Source: Anaerolineae bacterium (GTDB lineage Bacteria; Chloroflexota; Anaerolineae; 4572-78; J111). From it: DNA of 43,166 nt. Numbering within the stretch: the first letter of the stretch is position 1; every line of letters starts with the position of its first letter. The notes beneath the pieces are model-generated. The model searched no databases. It worked only from the letters and a program-made list of their open reading frames with translations, and was not told where the DNA came from. Positions 13,028-25,659 of the stretch are shown here, in pieces. A program made the translations under genes and the position numbers. The DNA lies in NCBI GenBank assembly GCA_016931895.1, contig JAFGDY010000076.1:1-43166 (forward strand). Direction: 5' to 3'.

Positions 13028-14176
13028 TTATTCGACAATAATCTTTTCATCAATAAGCTTCTGCTCAACCAAATTGCCTTTGGGATTAAAGCAGAAGTGC
13101 TGCGCTCGCATTTGGAACTCCACGTCTATCATAGCCCGGCCGGCCCGGTTTTTCTCCAGGGTAAAGACCACCCAGTCGCGGTAGCTCTCGCTTTTGTAAG
13201 GGTTGAAGGAAACATGGTCTTTAGACAAAATGTGGAATTTATTGTTCATGAGAATAGCAATGTCACATTCGTAATCCAGGGCGGAACTGCCACGCAGGTG
13301 ATACAGGTGCATCCGTTTGCTGCGCAGTCCCTCCCGGTCGGCGGCCACAATAGCCACCACCGGAATGTTTTGGGTCATGGCAATATCTTTGAGACCTTCG
13401 ACAATGATGGTGACTTTGTCGTTTTCGTCGGCGGCGCGTTCCGGGTAAATAGCCACTTTTTGCAGGTAGTCAATAAATAGAACCAGTTTGCCCTGGGTGG
13501 CCTCGGAAATTTGGCGGGCTATTTCTCGAATACTGTTCAAGGTGGTGGTGGCCGGGCTGGCTTTCATCAAAATCAGGCGGTCGGCGTAGCGATTAATTGT
13601 TTCCATCGCTTTGGCAGTCTTGGGATGCTGTGATAAAATTTGATGTAGGCCCACGTTGCCTTCATTGCGCACCCACTCGCGGGCGCGTTTGCTGACGACA
13701 ATATTGTGCAAGTCTTTCAAACGAATGCCGCCGCTGGTGTCGCTAATGGTGGGGTCAATGCTTTCCTGGCAGATAAGGCGATTTAAGAGGTGGACTTCGC
13801 TGTGTTCGTAAGAAACGTAAAGCGCGTAAGTGGCCTCATTAAGAGCCAAGTTGCGGGCCATTTGGAGAGCGGTAATGGTTTTGCCAATACCTTGAGGCCC
13901 ACCCAATAAAACCAGTTCTGTCCGGCGCAAACCGCCGCCGATCAAGCGGTCAATTTGGTCAAAGCCGCAAGGTATGGGTAAATATTCGTCCAGTTCGCCC
14001 TGGACCACCATCCGGTCGGCTTCTCTTAAAACCTGGTTCAAACTTCTGGGTGTGGGGCCGCTCAACCGGCGTTGCGCTGCGCCGCGGGGCGTGCGTGGTT
14101 GGGGCGGTTGTTGGGGCGCTTGCTGGGATGGACTTTGCGGTTGTGGCACTCTAACTTGGGCCTCTGAAGGTGGCAT
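13028..14176 (-). CDS. DnaB-like RecA-fold ATPase lacking the DnaB N-terminal domain
   Basis: A 382-residue protein. A Pro/Gln-rich N-terminus of about 45 residues leads into a DnaB C-terminal-like core (SF4 helicase). Walker A is GGPQGIGKT (about residues 91-99), Walker B is LVLFIDYLQKV, and the later segments RGSSALDYECDIAILM and FTLEKNRAGRA are typical of DnaB motif H4 and the arginine-finger region. The DnaB N-terminal helical domain that binds primase is absent, so it is probably not the main replicative helicase. It has a good promoter (14221-14249) and the NucS-like gene follows 35 bases downstream, suggesting a shared DNA-related task. Confidence 0.85.
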   Translation of the reverse strand: MPPSEAQVRVPQPQSPSQQAPQQPPQPRTPRGAAQRRLSGPTPRSLNQVLREADRMVVQGELDEYLPIPCGFDQIDRLIGGGLRRTELVLLGGPQGIGKTITALQMARNLALNEATYALYVSYEHSEVHLLNRLICQESIDPTISDTSGGIRLKDLHNIVVSKRAREWVRNEGNVGLHQILSQHPKTAKAMETINRYADRLILMKASPATTTLNSIREIARQISEATQGKLVLFIDYLQKVAIYPERAADENDKVTIIVEGLKDIAMTQNIPVVAIVAADREGLRSKRMHLYHLRGSSALDYECDIAILMNNKFHILSKDHVSFNPYKSESYRDWVVFTLEKNRAGRAMIDVEFQMRAQHFCFNPKGNLVEQKLIDEKIIVE

Positions 14177-17402: not shown

Positions 17403-17477
17403 CAGGGTAGCAGGTAGCAAGGTGGCAACTACTCATAAAACCCTGTTACCTTGTTACATTGCTACTTTGTTACTTGG
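17400..17477. repeat. heptamer-periodic palindromic repeat spanning two convergent gene ends
   Basis: The left arm (17400-17431, TAGCAGGGTAGCAGGTAGCA and onward) and the right arm (17441-17477, rich in TTGTTAC/TTGCTAC units) are approximately complementary. The left arm supplies the TAG stop of the SDR gene and the right arm supplies the last codons and stop of the WecA-like gene. The position between convergent genes suits a bidirectional terminator. Confidence 0.8.
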
Positions 17478-18493
17478 CCATCTTGTCTCGCCAACCACCA
17501 CAGCAGGATTAACGTCAGGCTGCCCATCACGCCCAGGGCAATCAGCTTGAACAGGCGGACTTCGATGAGTAGTGCCAGCAAGCCAAACGTGGCGCAAAAG
17601 AGATAGTAGAGAGACACGATTTGTCGTTGGCTTAAGCCCAGATCAAGCAGGCGGTAATGCAGATGGTCGCGCCCGGCTGCGGCAGGGTTCCCCCGTTGTT
17701 GCCAGCGTCTGATCATTACCCAGGCCACGTCAATAATGGGAATGCCCAGCACCAATAGCGCCGTGGCCACTTTGGCCGGAGCCAAAATGGATAGGGAAGC
17801 CAGGGCAAAACCCAGAAACATGCTGCCGCTGCCCATAAAAACCCGGGCCGGATAAAAGTTGAAAGGCAAAAAACCAAGACAGGCGGCGGCTAGGGCCAGG
17901 GGAAAAAGGGCGACCATGGTTTGCCCCAGGCTGTAGGCGTGAACGGCAAAAAGCAGGCTGGCAATGGCTGTTACGCCGGCGGCCAGTCCGTCCAGACCAT
18001 CCAGCCAGTTGACCGTGTTAATCATGCCCATAATCCAGAAGATAGTTAGGGGATAAGTTAGCCACGGCGGAAAAATCTTAAAACCAAAAATCGGCAGCGT
18101 GGCCCGTTCAATAATAATATCAAACCCAATCGCGATCAGGGCGACCCCCAATTGGGCGGCAAATTGAGGCCAGACCGACAATTCTCGCCAATCGTCCCAC
18201 CAGCCAAACATGAAAATCACACTGCTGCCAAGCAACACCCCGGCCAGTAATTTCCGGTCTTCAGGGCCAATGGGCGGCCAAACTTCAAACGCGCTCAACC
18301 CAAAAACCAGCAAGCCCGCCCCCATAAATCCGGCGAACAGGGCCATCCCCCCCAGGCGAGAAATCTCGCCCCGGTGGGTGCGCCGCCCGCCGGGGCGGTC
18401 TGTTAAACCCAAAGTTTGCCCCACTTTGCCGCCGATAGGGGTAATCATTAAGGCTAAAACAAACGCTGCAAGAAAAACGGTGATATACATCAT
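17462..18493 (-). CDS. WecA/TagO/MraY-type phospho-sugar transferase
   Basis: A polytopic glycosyl-1-phosphate transferase that moves GlcNAc-1-P or a related sugar from a UDP-sugar to undecaprenyl phosphate, starting wall or surface polysaccharide synthesis. Signatures are DDW (FGWWDDWRE, about residues 97-105), NTVNWLDGLDGLAAG (about 159-173), MGSGSMFLGF and the loop GRDHLHYRLLDLG (about 272-284). The latter resembles the HIHH-type motif of WecA-like members rather than MraY. Length is 343 residues with about ten membrane segments. Its last residues (QVTK) come from the heptamer repeat. It diverges from the sixA-type gene. Confidence 0.92.
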   Translation of the reverse strand: MMYITVFLAAFVLALMITPIGGKVGQTLGLTDRPGGRRTHRGEISRLGGMALFAGFMGAGLLVFGLSAFEVWPPIGPEDRKLLAGVLLGSSVIFMFGWWDDWRELSVWPQFAAQLGVALIAIGFDIIIERATLPIFGFKIFPPWLTYPLTIFWIMGMINTVNWLDGLDGLAAGVTAIASLLFAVHAYSLGQTMVALFPLALAAACLGFLPFNFYPARVFMGSGSMFLGFALASLSILAPAKVATALLVLGIPIIDVAWVMIRRWQQRGNPAAAGRDHLHYRLLDLGLSQRQIVSLYYLFCATFGLLALLIEVRLFKLIALGVMGSLTLILLWWLARQDGQVTK

Positions 18494-19125: not shown

Positions 19126-19153
19126 GGGTAATAAGGAATGGTGAATGATGAAG
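19126..19153. repeat. heptamer-periodic repeat over a start codon
   Basis: The steps are GGGTAAT, AAGGAAT, GGTGAAT and GATGAAG. The AAGGA inside it is the probable ribosome binding site, and the tandem ATGs at 19145 and 19148 of the DUF3179 gene lie within it. Confidence 0.55.
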
Positions 19154-20548
19154 CATTTATTATGGCTTGGGCTGGTGAGTTTGACTGTGCTGGCTGCGCA
19201 GTGTAATGCTTCACCGCCCGCGGCGGAAACAGCCAGCCGCCAAACATCGCCAACGTTGGCAGACGAAGAGAAGGTATCACCCCAAGTTGCAGCGGCCGGG
19301 GAGCAGATTACGCCTGAAAAAAGTAATACCACGGCAGCGCCGGCGGCAGAGACGAATGAAGCCGAGATGAACCCGTCGAGCGATGCGGGTCAACAACCAC
19401 CAACAGCCGAATCCGGCGATCACTCCGCCGCGTGTGACGATCCCTTTGCCGGCGCGTCTGTTCGTTTTTCGCCTGAATTGTGGGCCGCCGACGACCTGGC
19501 CGATTTGGTGCCGGCAGATATTATAGACCCAGATAGTGACCTGGCTACCAATTTTTGCCTGCATAATGTTGACTATGCCGACATTGTCTCCGGCGGCCCC
19601 CCACCCGACGGCATCCCTCCGCTTGACAACCCGCAATTTGACTCGATTGCCGAGGGTGACGAATGGCTGGCCGATGTCCAACCGGTCATCGCCCTGGCGG
19701 TGGGCGACGAGGCCAAGGCTTATCCATTGGCCATTCTGACCCGCCATGAGATTGCCAATGACGAGATTGCCAGTTTGCCCGTAGCCGTAACTTTCTGCCC
19801 GTTGTGTAATGCCGGCATTGTTTTTAAACGTGAGGTTGACGGCGAGGTGTTACGTTTTGGCGTTTCCGGCAACCTGCGCCATAGCAACCTGATTATGTGG
19901 GACAACAAAACTCTCTCCTGGTGGCAGCAATTCACAGGCCAGGCTATTGTGGGCGATATGACGGGCGTGCAATTGGAAATGCTGCCGGCCCAACTGGTCT
20001 CCTGGCAAGATTTTAAAGAGGCTTATCCCACCGGTCAAGTATTATCCGCCAGCGGGCGTGCTTATGGCCGTAATCCCTATGTTGGTTACGACTCTTCAGC
20101 GCAACCGTTTCTCTTCCAGGGCACGCCTGACCCTCGCCTACCGGCGACAGCGCGCGTGTTGGGCTACTTCTCCGGCGATATGGCCGTGGCCTATCCCATG
20201 TCCGTGATTGCTGAAGAAGGGGTCATCGAGGATACGTTAAACGGTCAACGGGCGGTGATTTTTTACAAACCCGGCCAGGTGTCGGCCCTGGATCAAGGCA
20301 TTATCGAAGAGTCCAGGGAGGTTGGCTCTGCCGGGATGTTTAATCCGGAAGTTGACGGGCAGAAATTGACCTTTACCGCCGATAAGGGCGTTATCACCGA
20401 CAATGAAACCGGCAGTGAATGGAACGTGTTTGGTCGGGCCATCAGCGGTGAATTGGCCGGATCGCAGCTTGAACCTGTTTTGGGTCATCCTTATTTTTGG
20501 TTTGCCTGGGCCGCCTTCAGACCGGATACAACGGTTTACGGCCAGTAG
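19145..20548 (+). CDS. DUF3179 domain protein, probable lipoprotein or secreted
   Basis: A 467-residue exported protein. The N-terminal signal ends in VLAAQC, which resembles a lipobox but has an unusual Gln before the Cys. A low-complexity Ala/Thr/Glu region follows (about residues 20-95). The DUF3179 domain (about 170-460) contains AKAYPLAILTRHEIANDE, VTFCPLCNAGIVFKR (CxxC) and SGNLRHSNLIMWDNKTLSWW, all strongly conserved in that family. The function is unknown; the CPLC pair could bind metal or be redox active. It stands alone between sixA and the convergent flippase fusion. Confidence 0.88.
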   Translation: MMKHLLWLGLVSLTVLAAQCNASPPAAETASRQTSPTLADEEKVSPQVAAAGEQITPEKSNTTAAPAAETNEAEMNPSSDAGQQPPTAESGDHSAACDDPFAGASVRFSPELWAADDLADLVPADIIDPDSDLATNFCLHNVDYADIVSGGPPPDGIPPLDNPQFDSIAEGDEWLADVQPVIALAVGDEAKAYPLAILTRHEIANDEIASLPVAVTFCPLCNAGIVFKREVDGEVLRFGVSGNLRHSNLIMWDNKTLSWWQQFTGQAIVGDMTGVQLEMLPAQLVSWQDFKEAYPTGQVLSASGRAYGRNPYVGYDSSAQPFLFQGTPDPRLPATARVLGYFSGDMAVAYPMSVIAEEGVIEDTLNGQRAVIFYKPGQVSALDQGIIEESREVGSAGMFNPEVDGQKLTFTADKGVITDNETGSEWNVFGRAISGELAGSQLEPVLGHPYFWFAWAAFRPDTTVYGQ

Positions 20549-20590: not shown

Positions 20591-23500
20591 TCAGAATCTT
20601 GTGGCCGGGTGGGGGTCAGTGTTTTTTTGCCATGGTCGTAAGGGAATCGCCCGCCAGACCAGGCGCATATCTTGCTGGGTCAATCCGCCAACCAGGGCCA
20701 GGGTAATCAGGTAGATCACCCCGGCAATACCGATGGTCAGGAAGAAGTTAACATCGCCGATGAACCACAGCACACTGCCCATCACTGCGGCAGCAACCGT
20801 TGGCCGCCACACAATATCAAACCAAGGCACGGTGCAGAGATTTTTGCGCACCAGCAGGTAGAAGGGGATCAACAAAGCCCACTCAGAGAAAATAGTGGTG
20901 ACGGCCGCAGCCCGGTAGCCGTACAGGGGAATAAATATGAGATTGGCCACCACGTTAAACAAAACGCCAATGACAAACGCGCCGGTCAGGTGGCGCTGTT
21001 GGTTGATGGCTATGAGCACATATTGTGTGACCTGATTGATGAAGCTGAAAGGCAAAAACCAGATCAATAGTTGCAGCACAATCATTGAGTCGGGCAAAAA
21101 TTGTTCCCCGGCCAAAAAAAGAATGAGTTCGCGGGCAATAAAGGGCGTGCCGGCGGCAATGGGCAGGGCCAGGATAAGCAGAAAACGTAGGCTCAAAATG
21201 TAAGCCCGCACCAACGATTCGCGCGAGTTGGCGGCAAAGCGGCTCATCAAGGGAAAGAGGGCCAGGGTGAAATATTGGGGGATTACGTTGATGCCGTCAA
21301 TGTATTTGTAGGCGGCGTTGTAATAGCGCACGGCTTGGTCGCCCCAGGTGGGTTGGAGAATGAACACGTCAATGCGGAAGAAGATGGTTGAGAGCAGATG
21401 ATTGATCATCAGGGGCAGGCTTTCGGCCATCATCTCTTTTTGCAGGCCGCGGTCAGGGGCCAGGAAGGGGCGGAAAATTTTTACCACCAGAATGTACCCC
21501 AGGCTGGCAAACGCCACCAGGTTGGCCGCCAACGACGCCCCGGCCAGGCCGATAATGCCCCAGCCCAACAGCAGCACCAGCGCCCCCACACTCACCCGCG
21601 CCAACGCCGTCATTGAGGCGATGCCCGCCGGATATTCGGCTTTTTCGTGGGCGTAAAAAATGGCCGTCAGGCCGTCGGAGAGGTTGCTGAGCAGCGTGCC
21701 AATAGCCAGGATGGCAATAGTGATGATCACTTCGGGCGTGATGTCGCCAAAAAGCATGTACAGGCCCAGGATGGCGGCCATGGCCGGCAGCGCGGCCAGC
21801 CACAATACCAGCCGTAAGATGGACACGTTGGCCAGATAGCGATTACGGCGGTTGTGGTCGGCGGCCACTTCGCGGGTAACCAGCGTACCCAGGCCGTAGC
21901 GGGTCACTATCTCGGTGAGGCCGATGAAGGCCACGGCAAAGGCATAGCGCCCGGCTCCTTCCGGCTGCAAAATGCGTAGCATAAGCATAGCAAAGGCAAA
22001 GTCAATCAGCCGGTTGGAGAGGGCCAGCACCATTGGCACCAGGCTGTTTTTGGCCACCCGCTTGATGGGAGAGTCGGTTTCATGCTCCCGGTACAATTTT
22101 CCCCAGGCCCAATAACCCAGCAGAAAAACCAACGTAACAAAGGCCAGGAACGAGCCATACAGACCCAATTGGAAACTGCGCGGGCTGTAGCGGAAGCGGA
22201 CCTGCCACTGGCCGGGCTGGAGATAAATCGTGCGGAAATTGCCGTTGGCCCGGTGCAGGGTCAGTTCAATCTCTTCTGTTTCCACCGGGGTTTTGGCATA
22301 GGCTCGCCAGCCGGGGAAATAGGTATCGGCCAAAACCAGCCAGCCCGGTTGGTCCAGGCGGGCGGTCAATGTGACCTGGTTGGGGGTGTATTCAATAATC
22401 TCCACCCCGGGTCTGGCCCGGGAGAGCGGCCCGGCGTCGGCGGGGGTCAGATCGCGGCCCAGGCCGTTGTTTTCGCCATCAAGGATGAGTTGTTGGTGGG
22501 GATTGAGGCTGCGCAGGGCGTATTCCTCCTGGTCCATTTCAGCCAGATTAGGCGGTTTGGGGAAATCGGCGGAAGTGACGGCGTTTTGGGCCAAAAAGGC
22601 GCGGGGCAGGGCGTCAAGATTTTCATAAACTTTAATTTCGTGATCGTAAACCAGTTGATAGATGGGGTGGTTGATGTTGACGGTGGTCAGCAAGTAACGC
22701 ACGCCCAGTAAGTCCAGCAGGGCGGAATCCAGAGCGGTATAGTCAACGGTATAGAGCGGCCCCACCCGATTGAAGAGGAGGTCGCCGTTTTTTTGGATGA
22801 GCTGCATAAAGCGGGCGTATTGGGCCGGGATGATGCTGTCGTAGCCGCGCACGTCAAACAGGTTGCTGTACATCCCCGCATTGGCCGGAAAGACCTTGTT
22901 GCCGCGCCCAGCGGGGGTGTCGAAACTGGTGAGCCGGAAAAGAGGGTCTTCCGCCTGCCGCGCTTCCAGCCATTTAACTACCTCCGGCTTAAAGTTGAGC
23001 AGGGCGGGGTCAACCGAGGGATTGAAGCCGGCTCCGGCCAGCAGTAAATCAAGGCTGATGAGGATGATGGCGAGAGGCTTCCAGGCATTGATCCTGCCCC
23101 GCCCTCCTTTTTTCAGAGAGGGAAGAAAGATGGGGCAGCAGACGATGCGCAGGACGGCTCCGCCGGCCATAGTCATCAGAAAGAACTTAAAGAAGTTGGG
23201 CCACTGGTAGCCAAAAAATTGGCGGCCGTTGGCAAAAGCGTTTTGGGCCAGGCCAGAGTGGTCAAAAACAAAAGTGGTAATCTGGATGAAAGGCGCAGGA
23301 ATGAAAAGGGCGACGAGCATGGTCACGACCCCGATCAACCCACCCCAGAAAAGTAACCAGCCAAGACGGTGAGAGAGGGTTCCCGGGAAGGACAATGGGG
23401 CAAGGATGTAGGGTGGTGGGGGTAGTTGATCCTCCCTCCTTTGGAAGTTAGAGGGAGGCTTTGCGTCAAACCGGGAATTACGGGGAGGAGTCCGCCTGGC

Positions 23501-24898
23501 GCTGACCAGCCGGTTTAAATAGGTTGCGCCCAATCCCGCCAGCACGGCCAGGCTGAAGGTGTAGGGAAAAATCCAGCGAAAGGGCGAGTGGAGTTGGTTC
23601 CAGCCGGGCAGGCCGTAAAAGAGGAGGGCGTACAGCGGCGTGCCAAAGGCGAACAGGAGCGAGAGCGCGGCCAACAGAGCAAAAATGAATACATAGCGTT
23701 TAAATGTTTGTGCGTTTGTGCGTTTGAATGTTTCATGAATAGCTTGAGCAATGGCTAAGATAGCCAGAGCTAACGGCAAAATACCCACATAAGCCCCCGC
23801 CTCAACCGAGGTTTTAGTATCCCAACTGGTACAGTGGGGGCAGAGAGGATTGATTTCTCCATTGGCGTTGAGGCCAAGGGCTTGCCAGCCCCAGCTAATT
23901 GCGTCAAAATAACCGTGATGGGCGGGGCTGCCGAAGAAGTTGGGGATAATGAAACTGGCAATGCGCCGATAGGGCAAAGCCCAACCGCGCACGTCGGCCA
24001 GAGTAACGGAGTTATCGCGGAAATTTTGGGTGACAATCTCGTACATAGGCCCCAGTTGCACCGCGCCCAGCCCCAGGCCTAATCCTCCTATTACCAGTAA
24101 CCAGCCGGCCAGGCGTAAGGCAAACCGTGGCGTATTCTGCTGCTGTCCCAAAATGAGCAGGCGGCAAAAAGCATAAAAGCCACTGACCAGGAGCGTGTAG
24201 TAAGTGATCTCAACGTGTCCGGCCAGCGTCTGCAGCCCCACGGCCAGCGCCCCGGCCACCACGTAAGGGATTGGAGAGTAACCCACCCGCCCCTTGTTCT
24301 CTTGCTTGCGGATAATCACCTCAATAAAGGACAAAATGAGGGGCAGCCAGACCGCGCTGGCGATAATCATGGTAAAAACCACGCTCACCACAAAAAAGCC
24401 GCTGAGGGAATAGGTGAGGCCCGCCAACAAAGCCCCCAATCGCCCGGCCTGCAGCGCGCGGACAAAGATGTACATAAACAGACCCGCCAGCCATAATTGG
24501 CTAACGGTAAACCAGCCGTAGGCTTTGCTTAAGGGCAAAGTGTAAAACAGCAGGCTAAAGGGATAAAGGGCCGAGTGCTGTCCATTGGCCAGAAACGGCT
24601 GGCCCGACAGAATGTAGGGATTCCACAGGGGAATTTGACGGGCCGCTATAGTCTCCCGGATAAACTTTTTCCAAACGTAGTTCTCCAAAATCAGGTCCGA
24701 GAGAAGCTGGTTTTGCGGCCGACCCACATTGAGGGCTTCTTTAGAGGAGGCCCAGGGTTCATAAGCAAAAAGATTATCAACCGGGAGGAGCGTATTTGGC
24801 CCAATGGTGACGGACCAAAAAAGCGTTAAGGGCAGGATGAGTAGAATCAGCGCGGCCAGGAAGTCGTGCCGGTTAATGGCTTTGGACAAGCGGAACAC
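20591..24898 (-). CDS. fusion of YfhO-like GT-C glycosyltransferase and MOP/Wzx-type flippase
   Basis: One uninterrupted 1435-residue reading frame. Residues about 1-940 are YfhO-like: many membrane segments, a first extracellular loop with LLPVDNLFAYEPW (Asp-41, candidate GT-C catalytic residue) and a large extracellular region (about 600-900). After a charged link (REHETDSPIKRVAKNS, about 940-955), residues up to the end form a polysaccharide flippase of the MOP superfamily with about 12-14 membrane segments (YGLGTLVTREVAA, RIDVFILQPTWGDQAVRYYNAA). AGGAG overlaps the stop of the upstream Dpm1-like gene. The first start is GTG at 24898, but TTG at 24889 is better spaced from that AGGAG. YfhO proteins are known to transfer sugars from polyprenyl phosphate carriers to extracellular acceptors such as lipoteichoic acid. 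The fusion suggests flipping and transfer in one protein. Confidence 0.9.
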   Translation of the reverse strand: MFRLSKAINRHDFLAALILLILPLTLFWSVTIGPNTLLPVDNLFAYEPWASSKEALNVGRPQNQLLSDLILENYVWKKFIRETIAARQIPLWNPYILSGQPFLANGQHSALYPFSLLFYTLPLSKAYGWFTVSQLWLAGLFMYIFVRALQAGRLGALLAGLTYSLSGFFVVSVVFTMIIASAVWLPLILSFIEVIIRKQENKGRVGYSPIPYVVAGALAVGLQTLAGHVEITYYTLLVSGFYAFCRLLILGQQQNTPRFALRLAGWLLVIGGLGLGLGAVQLGPMYEIVTQNFRDNSVTLADVRGWALPYRRIASFIIPNFFGSPAHHGYFDAISWGWQALGLNANGEINPLCPHCTSWDTKTSVEAGAYVGILPLALAILAIAQAIHETFKRTNAQTFKRYVFIFALLAALSLLFAFGTPLYALLFYGLPGWNQLHSPFRWIFPYTFSLAVLAGLGATYLNRLVSARRTPPRNSRFDAKPPSNFQRREDQLPPPPYILAPLSFPGTLSHRLGWLLFWGGLIGVVTMLVALFIPAPFIQITTFVFDHSGLAQNAFANGRQFFGYQWPNFFKFFLMTMAGGAVLRIVCCPIFLPSLKKGGRGRINAWKPLAIILISLDLLLAGAGFNPSVDPALLNFKPEVVKWLEARQAEDPLFRLTSFDTPAGRGNKVFPANAGMYSNLFDVRGYDSIIPAQYARFMQLIQKNGDLLFNRVGPLYTVDYTALDSALLDLLGVRYLLTTVNINHPIYQLVYDHEIKVYENLDALPRAFLAQNAVTSADFPKPPNLAEMDQEEYALRSLNPHQQLILDGENNGLGRDLTPADAGPLSRARPGVEIIEYTPNQVTLTARLDQPGWLVLADTYFPGWRAYAKTPVETEEIELTLHRANGNFRTIYLQPGQWQVRFRYSPRSFQLGLYGSFLAFVTLVFLLGYWAWGKLYREHETDSPIKRVAKNSLVPMVLALSNRLIDFAFAMLMLRILQPEGAGRYAFAVAFIGLTEIVTRYGLGTLVTREVAADHNRRNRYLANVSILRLVLWLAALPAMAAILGLYMLFGDITPEVIITIAILAIGTLLSNLSDGLTAIFYAHEKAEYPAGIASMTALARVSVGALVLLLGWGIIGLAGASLAANLVAFASLGYILVVKIFRPFLAPDRGLQKEMMAESLPLMINHLLSTIFFRIDVFILQPTWGDQAVRYYNAAYKYIDGINVIPQYFTLALFPLMSRFAANSRESLVRAYILSLRFLLILALPIAAGTPFIARELILFLAGEQFLPDSMIVLQLLIWFLPFSFINQVTQYVLIAINQQRHLTGAFVIGVLFNVVANLIFIPLYGYRAAAVTTIFSEWALLIPFYLLVRKNLCTVPWFDIVWRPTVAAAVMGSVLWFIGDVNFFLTIGIAGVIYLITLALVGGLTQQDMRLVWRAIPLRPWQKNTDPHPATRF
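23706..23737. repeat. octamer tandem repeat inside the YfhO-flippase gene
   Basis: Four 8-base steps (GTTTGTGC twice, then GTTTGAAT and GTTTCATG). On the coding strand it encodes HETFKRTNAQTFKR in a cytoplasmic or interhelical loop. It resembles the heptamer loci but has an 8-base period. Confidence 0.75.
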
Positions 24899-24900
24899 TC

Positions 24901-25659
24901 CTATATCTGGGCTGAGGGGGACAGAGGCATAGGCTCTACGTTGCGGTGTCGCCAGCGAATTTCAAACACCCGCAGGGCTGCCTCTATTTTTACCGGCCAC
25001 GACATTTTGCTCTGGCCAATGCGGCGATCTTCAAAATAGATCGGGATTTCCAGAATACGGAAGTTGAGCTTTTCCGACACAAACGCCATTTCTATTTGAA
25101 ACACATAACCATTTGAAGTAATTCGGTCCAGCCCAATCTGCCGTAAGGCGCTGGCTTGCCAGCATTTAAACCCCGCCGTCGCATCTTTGGTCTGTACGCC
25201 CAAAATCCCCCGGGTCCACACCGAGTTGGCAAACCAGCTCAACAGCCAGCGTCCCCACCCCCAGCGCTCGTCTAACTCGCCGCCGCTTACATAACGAGAC
25301 CCTACCACCACCTCATGGCCGGCCATTTTTTCCAGCATTTGGGGAATGTAGGTGGGCGAATGGGAAAAGTCCGCGTCCATCTGAATAATATAGTCGGCGT
25401 TATGTTCCAGCGCCCACTTGAAACCGGTCACATAAGCCGTGCCCAAACCCAATTTACCCCGGCGATGAAGCACGTGCAGGCGTCCCGGATAGCAGTTCTG
25501 GGCCAACTCGTCGGTTATCTGGCCGGTGCCATCCGGCGAATCGTCGTCAACAATTAGAATCTGTAAATCTTCGTCAACTTCCAGGGTAAAAAGTTCGGCC
25601 GTGATGGCGGCTATGTTTTCAGCCTCATTATAAGTTGGAATTACAATAATTGTGGTCAT
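24901..25659 (-). CDS. polyprenyl-phosphate mannosyl/glycosyltransferase, Dpm1-like GT2
   Basis: A 252-residue GT2 enzyme that makes a polyprenyl-phosphate hexose from a nucleotide sugar at the inner membrane face. Features are IPTYNEAENI (residues 7-16), the nucleotide-binding VDDDSPDGTG (about 37-46), the DxD-type QMDADFSHSP (about 93-102) and the C-terminal RRIGQSKMS, as in Ppm1/DPMS. It has no membrane segments of its own. It is the first gene of a two-gene unit with the YfhO-flippase fusion, its stop codon being inside the next gene's ribosome binding site. It therefore probably supplies the lipid-linked sugar used by that protein. Confidence 0.92.
   Translation of the reverse strand: MTTIIVIPTYNEAENIAAITAELFTLEVDEDLQILIVDDDSPDGTGQITDELAQNCYPGRLHVLHRRGKLGLGTAYVTGFKWALEHNADYIIQMDADFSHSPTYIPQMLEKMAGHEVVVGSRYVSGGELDERWGWGRWLLSWFANSVWTRGILGVQTKDATAGFKCWQASALRQIGLDRITSNGYVFQIEMAFVSEKLNFRILEIPIYFEDRRIGQSKMSWPVKIEAALRVFEIRWRHRNVEPMPLSPSAQI

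Follow-up and report, generated by a model that had tools for sequence, protein, structure and literature searches.

A single reading frame in an Anaerolineae bacterium joins a YfhO-like GT-C region to a predicted flippase of the MOP (Wzx/MurJ) type. This domain fusion is real and conserved, falls within a known kind of pathway, and appears to be undescribed. Together with the GT2 gene immediately upstream, it probably constitutes a two-gene, three-step transmembrane glycosylation unit in which a polyprenyl-phosphate-linked sugar would be made, flipped, and transferred. No description of a YfhO GT-C/MOP flippase fusion was found in the open-access literature, which is weak evidence of absence and agrees with the first-pass annotation of this DNA, made from the letters alone, whose author knew of none.

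Locus, reading frame, and start codon

The source genome is MAG-like and consists of 320 contigs; the window, 43,166 nucleotides in length, is one whole contig. Residues are given in P0001 numbering, in which GTG 24898 is counted as residue 1. The features of the two genes are as follows.

24901 to 25659 (-), GT2 glycosyltransferase of 252 aa, predicted Dpm1/Ppm1-like polyprenyl-phosphate-sugar synthase (PF00535, 5.4e-29)
24898 to 24902 (-), Shine-Dalgarno AGGAG of the fusion gene, overlapping the GT2 stop TAG (24901-24903)
20591 to 24889 (-), YfhO-like GT-C/MOP flippase fusion gene, 1,432 aa from the conserved TTG, or 1,435 aa if GTG 24898 is used
23033 to 24871 (-), GT-C membrane core, aa 10 to 622, from the model and structural matches to STT3, AftD, PglB, PMT, and ArnT
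24671 to 24802 (-), first extracellular loop, aa 33 to 76, containing D41 and D68, candidate catalytic acids, along with P39, N63, and W76
23390 to 23497 (-), variable loop between membrane helices, aa 468 to 503, with pLDDT of 49 to 56 in blocks of aa 471 to 500
22184 to 23011 (-), predicted extracellular alpha/beta domain, aa 630 to 905, between the last two helices, from the model
22094 to 22180 (-), last transmembrane helix of the GT-C part, aa 907 to 935, from the model
22049 to 22093 (-), junction linker, aa 936 to 950
20636 to 22057 (-), MOP (Wzx/MurJ-type) flippase module, aa 948 to 1421, from Pfam and structural matches

The frame from 24898 to 20591 (-) is a single open frame of 1,435 codons when counted from GTG. 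An in-frame TTG at 24889 stands 8 nt past AGGAG, and the TAGGAG...TTG arrangement is kept in four close relatives (L039, L040, L043, and L046). Because GTG 24898 sits within the Shine-Dalgarno sequence and is unconserved and the TTG is conserved, GTG was rejected as the start, and the fusion probably begins at TTG 24889 and yields a product of 1,432 aa. The first-pass annotation had reported a single 1,435-residue frame preceded by a GT2 stop that overlaps the ribosome binding site. The overlap is as described (TAG at 24903-24901, AGGAG at 24902-24898) and the frame is indeed uninterrupted; the start and the length are what probably change.

The fused frame is conserved across the Chloroflexota

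A match to the fusion was present in 98 of 100 relatives searched, and many of these matches were single stop-free frames of 1,330 to 1,570 aa. Family f29 of the class gave no match, or only weak ones. Both halves lay in one long frame in 59 of the 60 class relatives fetched, and the fused frame was open in all 20 further loci from a phylum-wide search, most of them outside the class. The architecture, which the first-pass annotation had proposed to look for in related genomes, was thus found in 80 other fetched genomes from many Chloroflexota families (one in a broken frame), and these one-frame relatives contradict the possibility, raised at that time, that every homologue is split into two genes. 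Among the conserved fusions, sequence identity of the GT-C part falls to about 29 to 33%. A scan of named genomes placed relatives in Anaerolineae, Caldilineae, Ardenticatenia, Thermoflexia, and Candidatus Aquidulcis, and the best 80 of the 472 relatives in that scan were all from Chloroflexota.

The sixtieth class relative, L076, is frame-broken in the fusion. Its genome (G053) is a one-contig assembly in which the GT2 gene is frame-broken too, and the breaks in both genes are probably sequencing indels in the assembly. This broken frame, together with the MAG-like, 320-contig source, might be taken to mean that the fusion is an assembly join, a frameshift, or a read-through of two genes, but the fused frame recurs in 79 other assemblies, one of which (G018) is a single contig of 5.35 Mb that carries the fusion without an internal stop. 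With intact fused frames in 59 of the 60 class relatives and at all 20 further loci, the fusion is not a chance or assembly join; an artefact was excluded on the grounds of this conservation, and we give it virtually no weight.

The first half has a predicted GT-C fold

YfhO (PF09586) matched the N-terminal part with 53.5 bits against a Pfam cutoff of 28.5, and a sequence search of solved structures with the whole fusion returned nothing at E values up to 1. AlphaFold2 models built with an 80-sequence alignment covered the fusion in two overlapping parts, the first 945 residues and residues 600 to 1435. The model of the first 945 residues (pLDDT of 93.0, pTM of 0.93) gave STT3/AftD/PglB/ArnT-like GT-C matches with Z scores of 16 to 23, including yeast STT3 (8agc_A; Z of 22.7, 455 aa, 4.5 A), mycobacterial AftD (6w98_A; Z of 22.3, 572 aa, 5.4 A), and ArnT (5f15; Z of 16.3); PglB, PMT, and AftA were also matched. 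Foldseek ranked AftD first and ArnT next. On the strength of this model we are confident that the first half adopts a GT-C fold shared with solved structures, and the earlier description of the N-terminal half as YfhO-like GT-C holds by both the PF09586 score and the high-confidence model.

GT-C enzymes hold a catalytic acid in the first outer loop. A conserved acidic residue at that place, a GT-C trait, is present in the fusions: at position 41, 78 of the 80 sequences have D and the other 2 have E, so that it is acidic in every one, and D68 is found in 80 of 80. P39, N63, D68, W76, E230, Q281, and R294 are invariant across the same 80 sequences. The DXXD of GtlB is likewise formed by first-outer-loop acids (PMC5836110). 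The modelled order of elements is that of YfhO, with helices to aa 622, an outer domain at aa 630 to 905, and a last helix at aa 907 to 935; in Bacillus subtilis YfhO, too, a large outer loop lies between the last two helices (PMC5836110). Residues 766 to 905 of the outer domain bear a weak resemblance to domains at the C terminus of a dextranase (Z of 6.7). The WWDxG signature of STT3, PglB, and AglB was found in none of the 80 sequences, and membership in these oligosaccharyltransferases was rejected for that reason. "YfhO" is a loose label, as the modelled fold of this domain is near oligosaccharyltransferases and AftD alike, which leaves room for a diphosphate-linked donor. The source genome encodes about ten more YfhO-family proteins, in frames of 785 to 990 aa that are too short to hold a flippase too.

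The second half has a predicted MOP flippase fold

Polysacc_synt (PF01943) matched aa 948 to 1221 with 100.3 bits against a cutoff of 28.2 (E value of 1.6e-28), and the C-terminal part was matched by MatE (33.8 bits against a cutoff of 24.9; E value of 3.4e-8) and also by Polysacc_synt_3 in Pfam. In the model of residues 600 to 1435 (pLDDT of 91.6, pTM of 0.82), the second half superposed on MurJ (6nc6_A; Z of 32.2, rmsd of 2.8 over 446) and on WzxE (9g9n_A; Z of 30.1, rmsd of 3.1 over 402). We confidently assign a MurJ/WzxE-like MOP fold to this half from the model, in line with the MOP flippase that the first-pass annotation had seen in the letters; the structure prediction that it proposed for the full protein, run here on the two overlapping parts, returned both a GT-C and a MOP fold with high confidence. 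R1009, R1029, N951, N1288, N1319, and E1339 of the flippase are invariant in the 80 sequences.

The MOP fold begins at about residue 932 to 951 in the model. Judging from the order of the chain, the last GT-C helix would end on the cytoplasmic side, which is where MOP proteins start. The junction linker contains position 22060, near which the first-pass annotation had advised checking for a frameshift or assembly join, and 79 aligned relatives show no break there.

The GT2 gene is a frequent neighbor

The GT2 protein has no membrane domain, and its best solved relative is the dolichol-phosphate-mannose synthase of P. furiosus (5mlz; E value of 1e-26, aa 3 to 234). By its sequence it looks like a polyprenyl-phosphate-sugar synthase, and its likeness to dolichol-phosphate-mannose synthase does not fix the sugar. 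In 35 of 61 loci (the window plus 60 class relatives), a GT2 gene precedes the fusion gene on its strand by at most 400 nt, and the same holds for 6 of the 20 further phylum-wide loci. It is thus linked in 41 of 81 loci overall, often overlapping the fusion gene, and is the sole family that recurs at a fixed place beside it. The two-gene unit of the first-pass annotation stands as a recurrent neighborhood; the linkage is not constant. A clear GT2 orthologue (53 to 69% identity) is encoded elsewhere in 7 of 23 unlinked genomes, and others among the unlinked genomes have GT2 matches at the paralogue level only. Two fusion genomes (G092 and G061) have one weak GT2 match each, and two others (G090 and G091) have weak ones only. 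In the source genome (G000), 19 GT2 matches were counted, one of them a 47% paralogue of the GT2 in the window.

A larger operon was considered and rejected, there being no third conserved neighbor; response regulators, seen at 17 loci, were scattered and inconsistently placed. Other genes in the window include a Glycos_transf_4 (WecA/TagO/MraY-type) polyprenyl-phosphate sugar-1-phosphate transferase gene at 17465-18493 (-), about 2 kb downstream of the fusion and not conserved as a neighbor in relatives; a gene for a DUF3179 protein at 19145-20545 (+) (326 bits), convergent with the fusion gene; and a gene for a 382-aa DnaB_C-domain ATPase at 13031-14176 (-), with no match to the DnaB N-terminal domain.

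Stand-alone flippases and the history of the fusion

Distances in the GT-C and MOP modules co-vary (r of 0.82, versus a maximum of 0.17 in 500 permutations); therefore, the two modules have shared one history. The closest relative in other Chloroflexota is a flippase that stands alone and is mostly 523 to 589 aa long. At 20 loci with a stand-alone or eroded flippase, gene contexts were varied and no separate YfhO of the fusion kind adjoined. The stand-alone flippases at L127, L128, L131, L137, L138, and L143 matched the junction profile with E values of 2e-6 to 2e-4, and the N-terminal segment matched is the last helix of the GT-C half plus the linker. Two MOP paralogues in the source genome reached chance scores only against this profile. 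These sequences suggest that the stand-alone flippases arose when a fused ancestor secondarily lost its GT-C core, which is the simpler reading because the helix that they retain is itself a part of the YfhO family. In the tree, whose deep branches are weakly supported and whose outgroup is poor, fused and unfused rows were intermixed, and the direction of change is not settled by it.

The locus L136 (5394-8081, +) encodes a protein of 896 aa in which a shortened GT-C half and the final part of the outer domain are followed by the last helix and a complete flippase. It matched the junction profile with an E value of 1e-15 and, from its sequence, is best described as an eroded fusion, an intermediate. 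At L126 (6234-7886, +), a stand-alone flippase very near the fused ones (profile score of 624 bits) is followed by an overlapping 780-aa ORF whose start resembles another multi-membrane GT-C type protein; this pair is possibly a partner swap.

Proposed function and alternatives

A GT-A synthase, a flippase, and a GT-C module are present together in the window. In the proposed unit, the cytoplasmic Dpm1-like GT2 would put a nucleotide sugar onto polyprenyl phosphate, the C-terminal MOP module would turn the polyprenyl-P-sugar to the outer leaflet, and the N-terminal GT-C module would pass the sugar to a surface acceptor by means of D41, D68, and the outer domain. The acceptor would be a wall or surface polysaccharide, a glycolipid, or a glycoprotein, with its genes placed elsewhere because no other neighbor is conserved. 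The source genome encodes an LCP-family protein and gives a weak match to Glyphos_transf; therefore, a wall-linked polymer is a possible acceptor. The first-pass proposal that flipping and transfer are joined in one polypeptide keeps its architectural part, since the fusion is real, and we infer catalysis, flipping, and coupling, as well as every chemical step, the sugar, and the acceptor. Covalent joining may serve the direct hand-over of the flipped lipid or may merely fix a 1:1 ratio and location. Tentatively, and with more doubt than expectation, the fusion could be a single-chain flip-and-transfer enzyme whose MOP module feeds polyprenyl-P-sugar straight to the GT-C site, coupled in cis, as a Chloroflexota innovation later lost in some lineages.

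Several observations speak against a polyprenyl-P-sugar unit: the top folds include oligosaccharyltransferases, MurJ and Wzx carry diphosphate-linked substrates, some fusion genomes have no close GT2, and characterised YfhO systems use GtrA-type flippases, of which the source genome itself also has one. In the main alternative, the Wzx/MurJ-like half would flip a polyprenyl-diphosphate oligosaccharide built elsewhere, for en bloc transfer to protein or polymer by the GT-C half in the manner of an oligosaccharyltransferase or ligase, with the GT2 acting in oligosaccharide assembly. Such a route would fit the GT-C half's best Z score, to STT3 (22.7, tied with AftD at 22.3), the nearness of the flippase half to MurJ and WzxE, the genomes in which the fusion lacks a close GT2, and the existence of a described YfhO-like family related to STT3/PglB (PMC10584680). 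We nonetheless consider it rather unlikely: WWDxG is missing in 80 of 80 sequences, the GT2 resembles a lipid-P-mannose synthase, which yields monophosphate donors, and the monophosphate-donor users AftD, ArnT, and PMT score similarly or slightly lower.

The fusion could also be one of convenience, with halves that act on different substrates or are uncoupled and are joined for equal expression and co-localisation. The L126 flippase, which closely resembles the fused ones and is followed by another multi-membrane ORF, would fit this, as would the unfused flippases that persist alone in other Chloroflexota, but the covalent link has long been conserved over many families and the halves co-vary, making the idea improbable. 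An inactive GT-C half that serves the flippase as a scaffold or regulatory platform would be consistent with L136, whose flippase is well conserved beside an eroded GT-C half, and with the lineages that dropped the GT-C core. This reading seems highly improbable, because the loop-1 acids, N63, E230, and R294 are near-invariant in full-length fusions.

It has long been asked which proteins flip polyprenyl- and dolichyl-phosphate sugars. The conserved covalent joining of a MOP transporter to a GT-C transferase provides strong genetic evidence for MOP proteins as suppliers of GT-C donors, and one purified chain would let flipping and transfer be assayed together. Moreover, the fusion points to a surface glycosylation route widespread in the Chloroflexota, whose envelopes are poorly known.

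Comparison with known systems

The first-pass annotation had modelled the locus on the YfhO systems. In B. subtilis and Staphylococcus aureus, CsbB/GtcA/YfhO glycosylates lipoteichoic acid, and in B. subtilis a GT2 gene shares an operon with that for a YfhO-family GT-C protein (PMC5836110), so the pairing of GT2 with YfhO is common to both. However, YfhO is there a single-module protein, and the flippase GtcA is small, of the GtrA type, and encoded apart from csbB-yfhO in B. subtilis. The flippase part of the model needs qualifying: the known YfhO system uses a small GtrA-type flippase, and deletion of a Wzx homologue had no effect there (PMC7389260). Biochemical evidence for B. subtilis YfhO itself is still missing, according to those who studied it (PMC5836110). 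Component 27, a large bacterial "YfhO-like" family related to STT3/PglB (Durairaj et al. 2023, Nature; PMC10584680), also consists of YfhO-labelled membrane proteins; in the excerpt of that paper, its median length is 665 aa and no flippase module is mentioned.

The pairing of a MATE/Wzx flippase with a GT-C enzyme and a polyprenyl-P-sugar synthase is established or proposed for separate proteins. GacI/GacJ/GacK/GacL of Streptococcus pyogenes, which carry out GlcNAc decoration of the group A carbohydrate, include a GT-A enzyme making C55-P-GlcNAc, the Wzx-type flippase GacK, and the GT-C transferase GacL (PMC8035078), but these are three or four separate proteins with no fusion, and GacL is annotated as PMT-2 and not as YfhO. 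The three-component GT136 systems of Citrobacter, which add pentofuranose to O antigens, likewise combine a polyprenyl-P-sugar synthase, a MATE-family flippase, and a GT-C transferase (PMC11127046); they differ in having separate proteins, a ribofuranose-type donor, and another GT-C family. In Haloferax volcanii, the final mannose of the S-layer N-glycan is added by AglD/AglR/AglS, respectively a Dol-P-Man synthase, a proposed Dol-P-Man flippase or its helper, and a Dol-P-Man transferase (PMC3871713), although this system is archaeal and encoded by separate genes, and AglS is not known to be of the YfhO kind. By analogy of components, GacK/GacL, the GT136 systems, and AglR/AglS are closer counterparts of the fusion than the YfhO/GtrA system.
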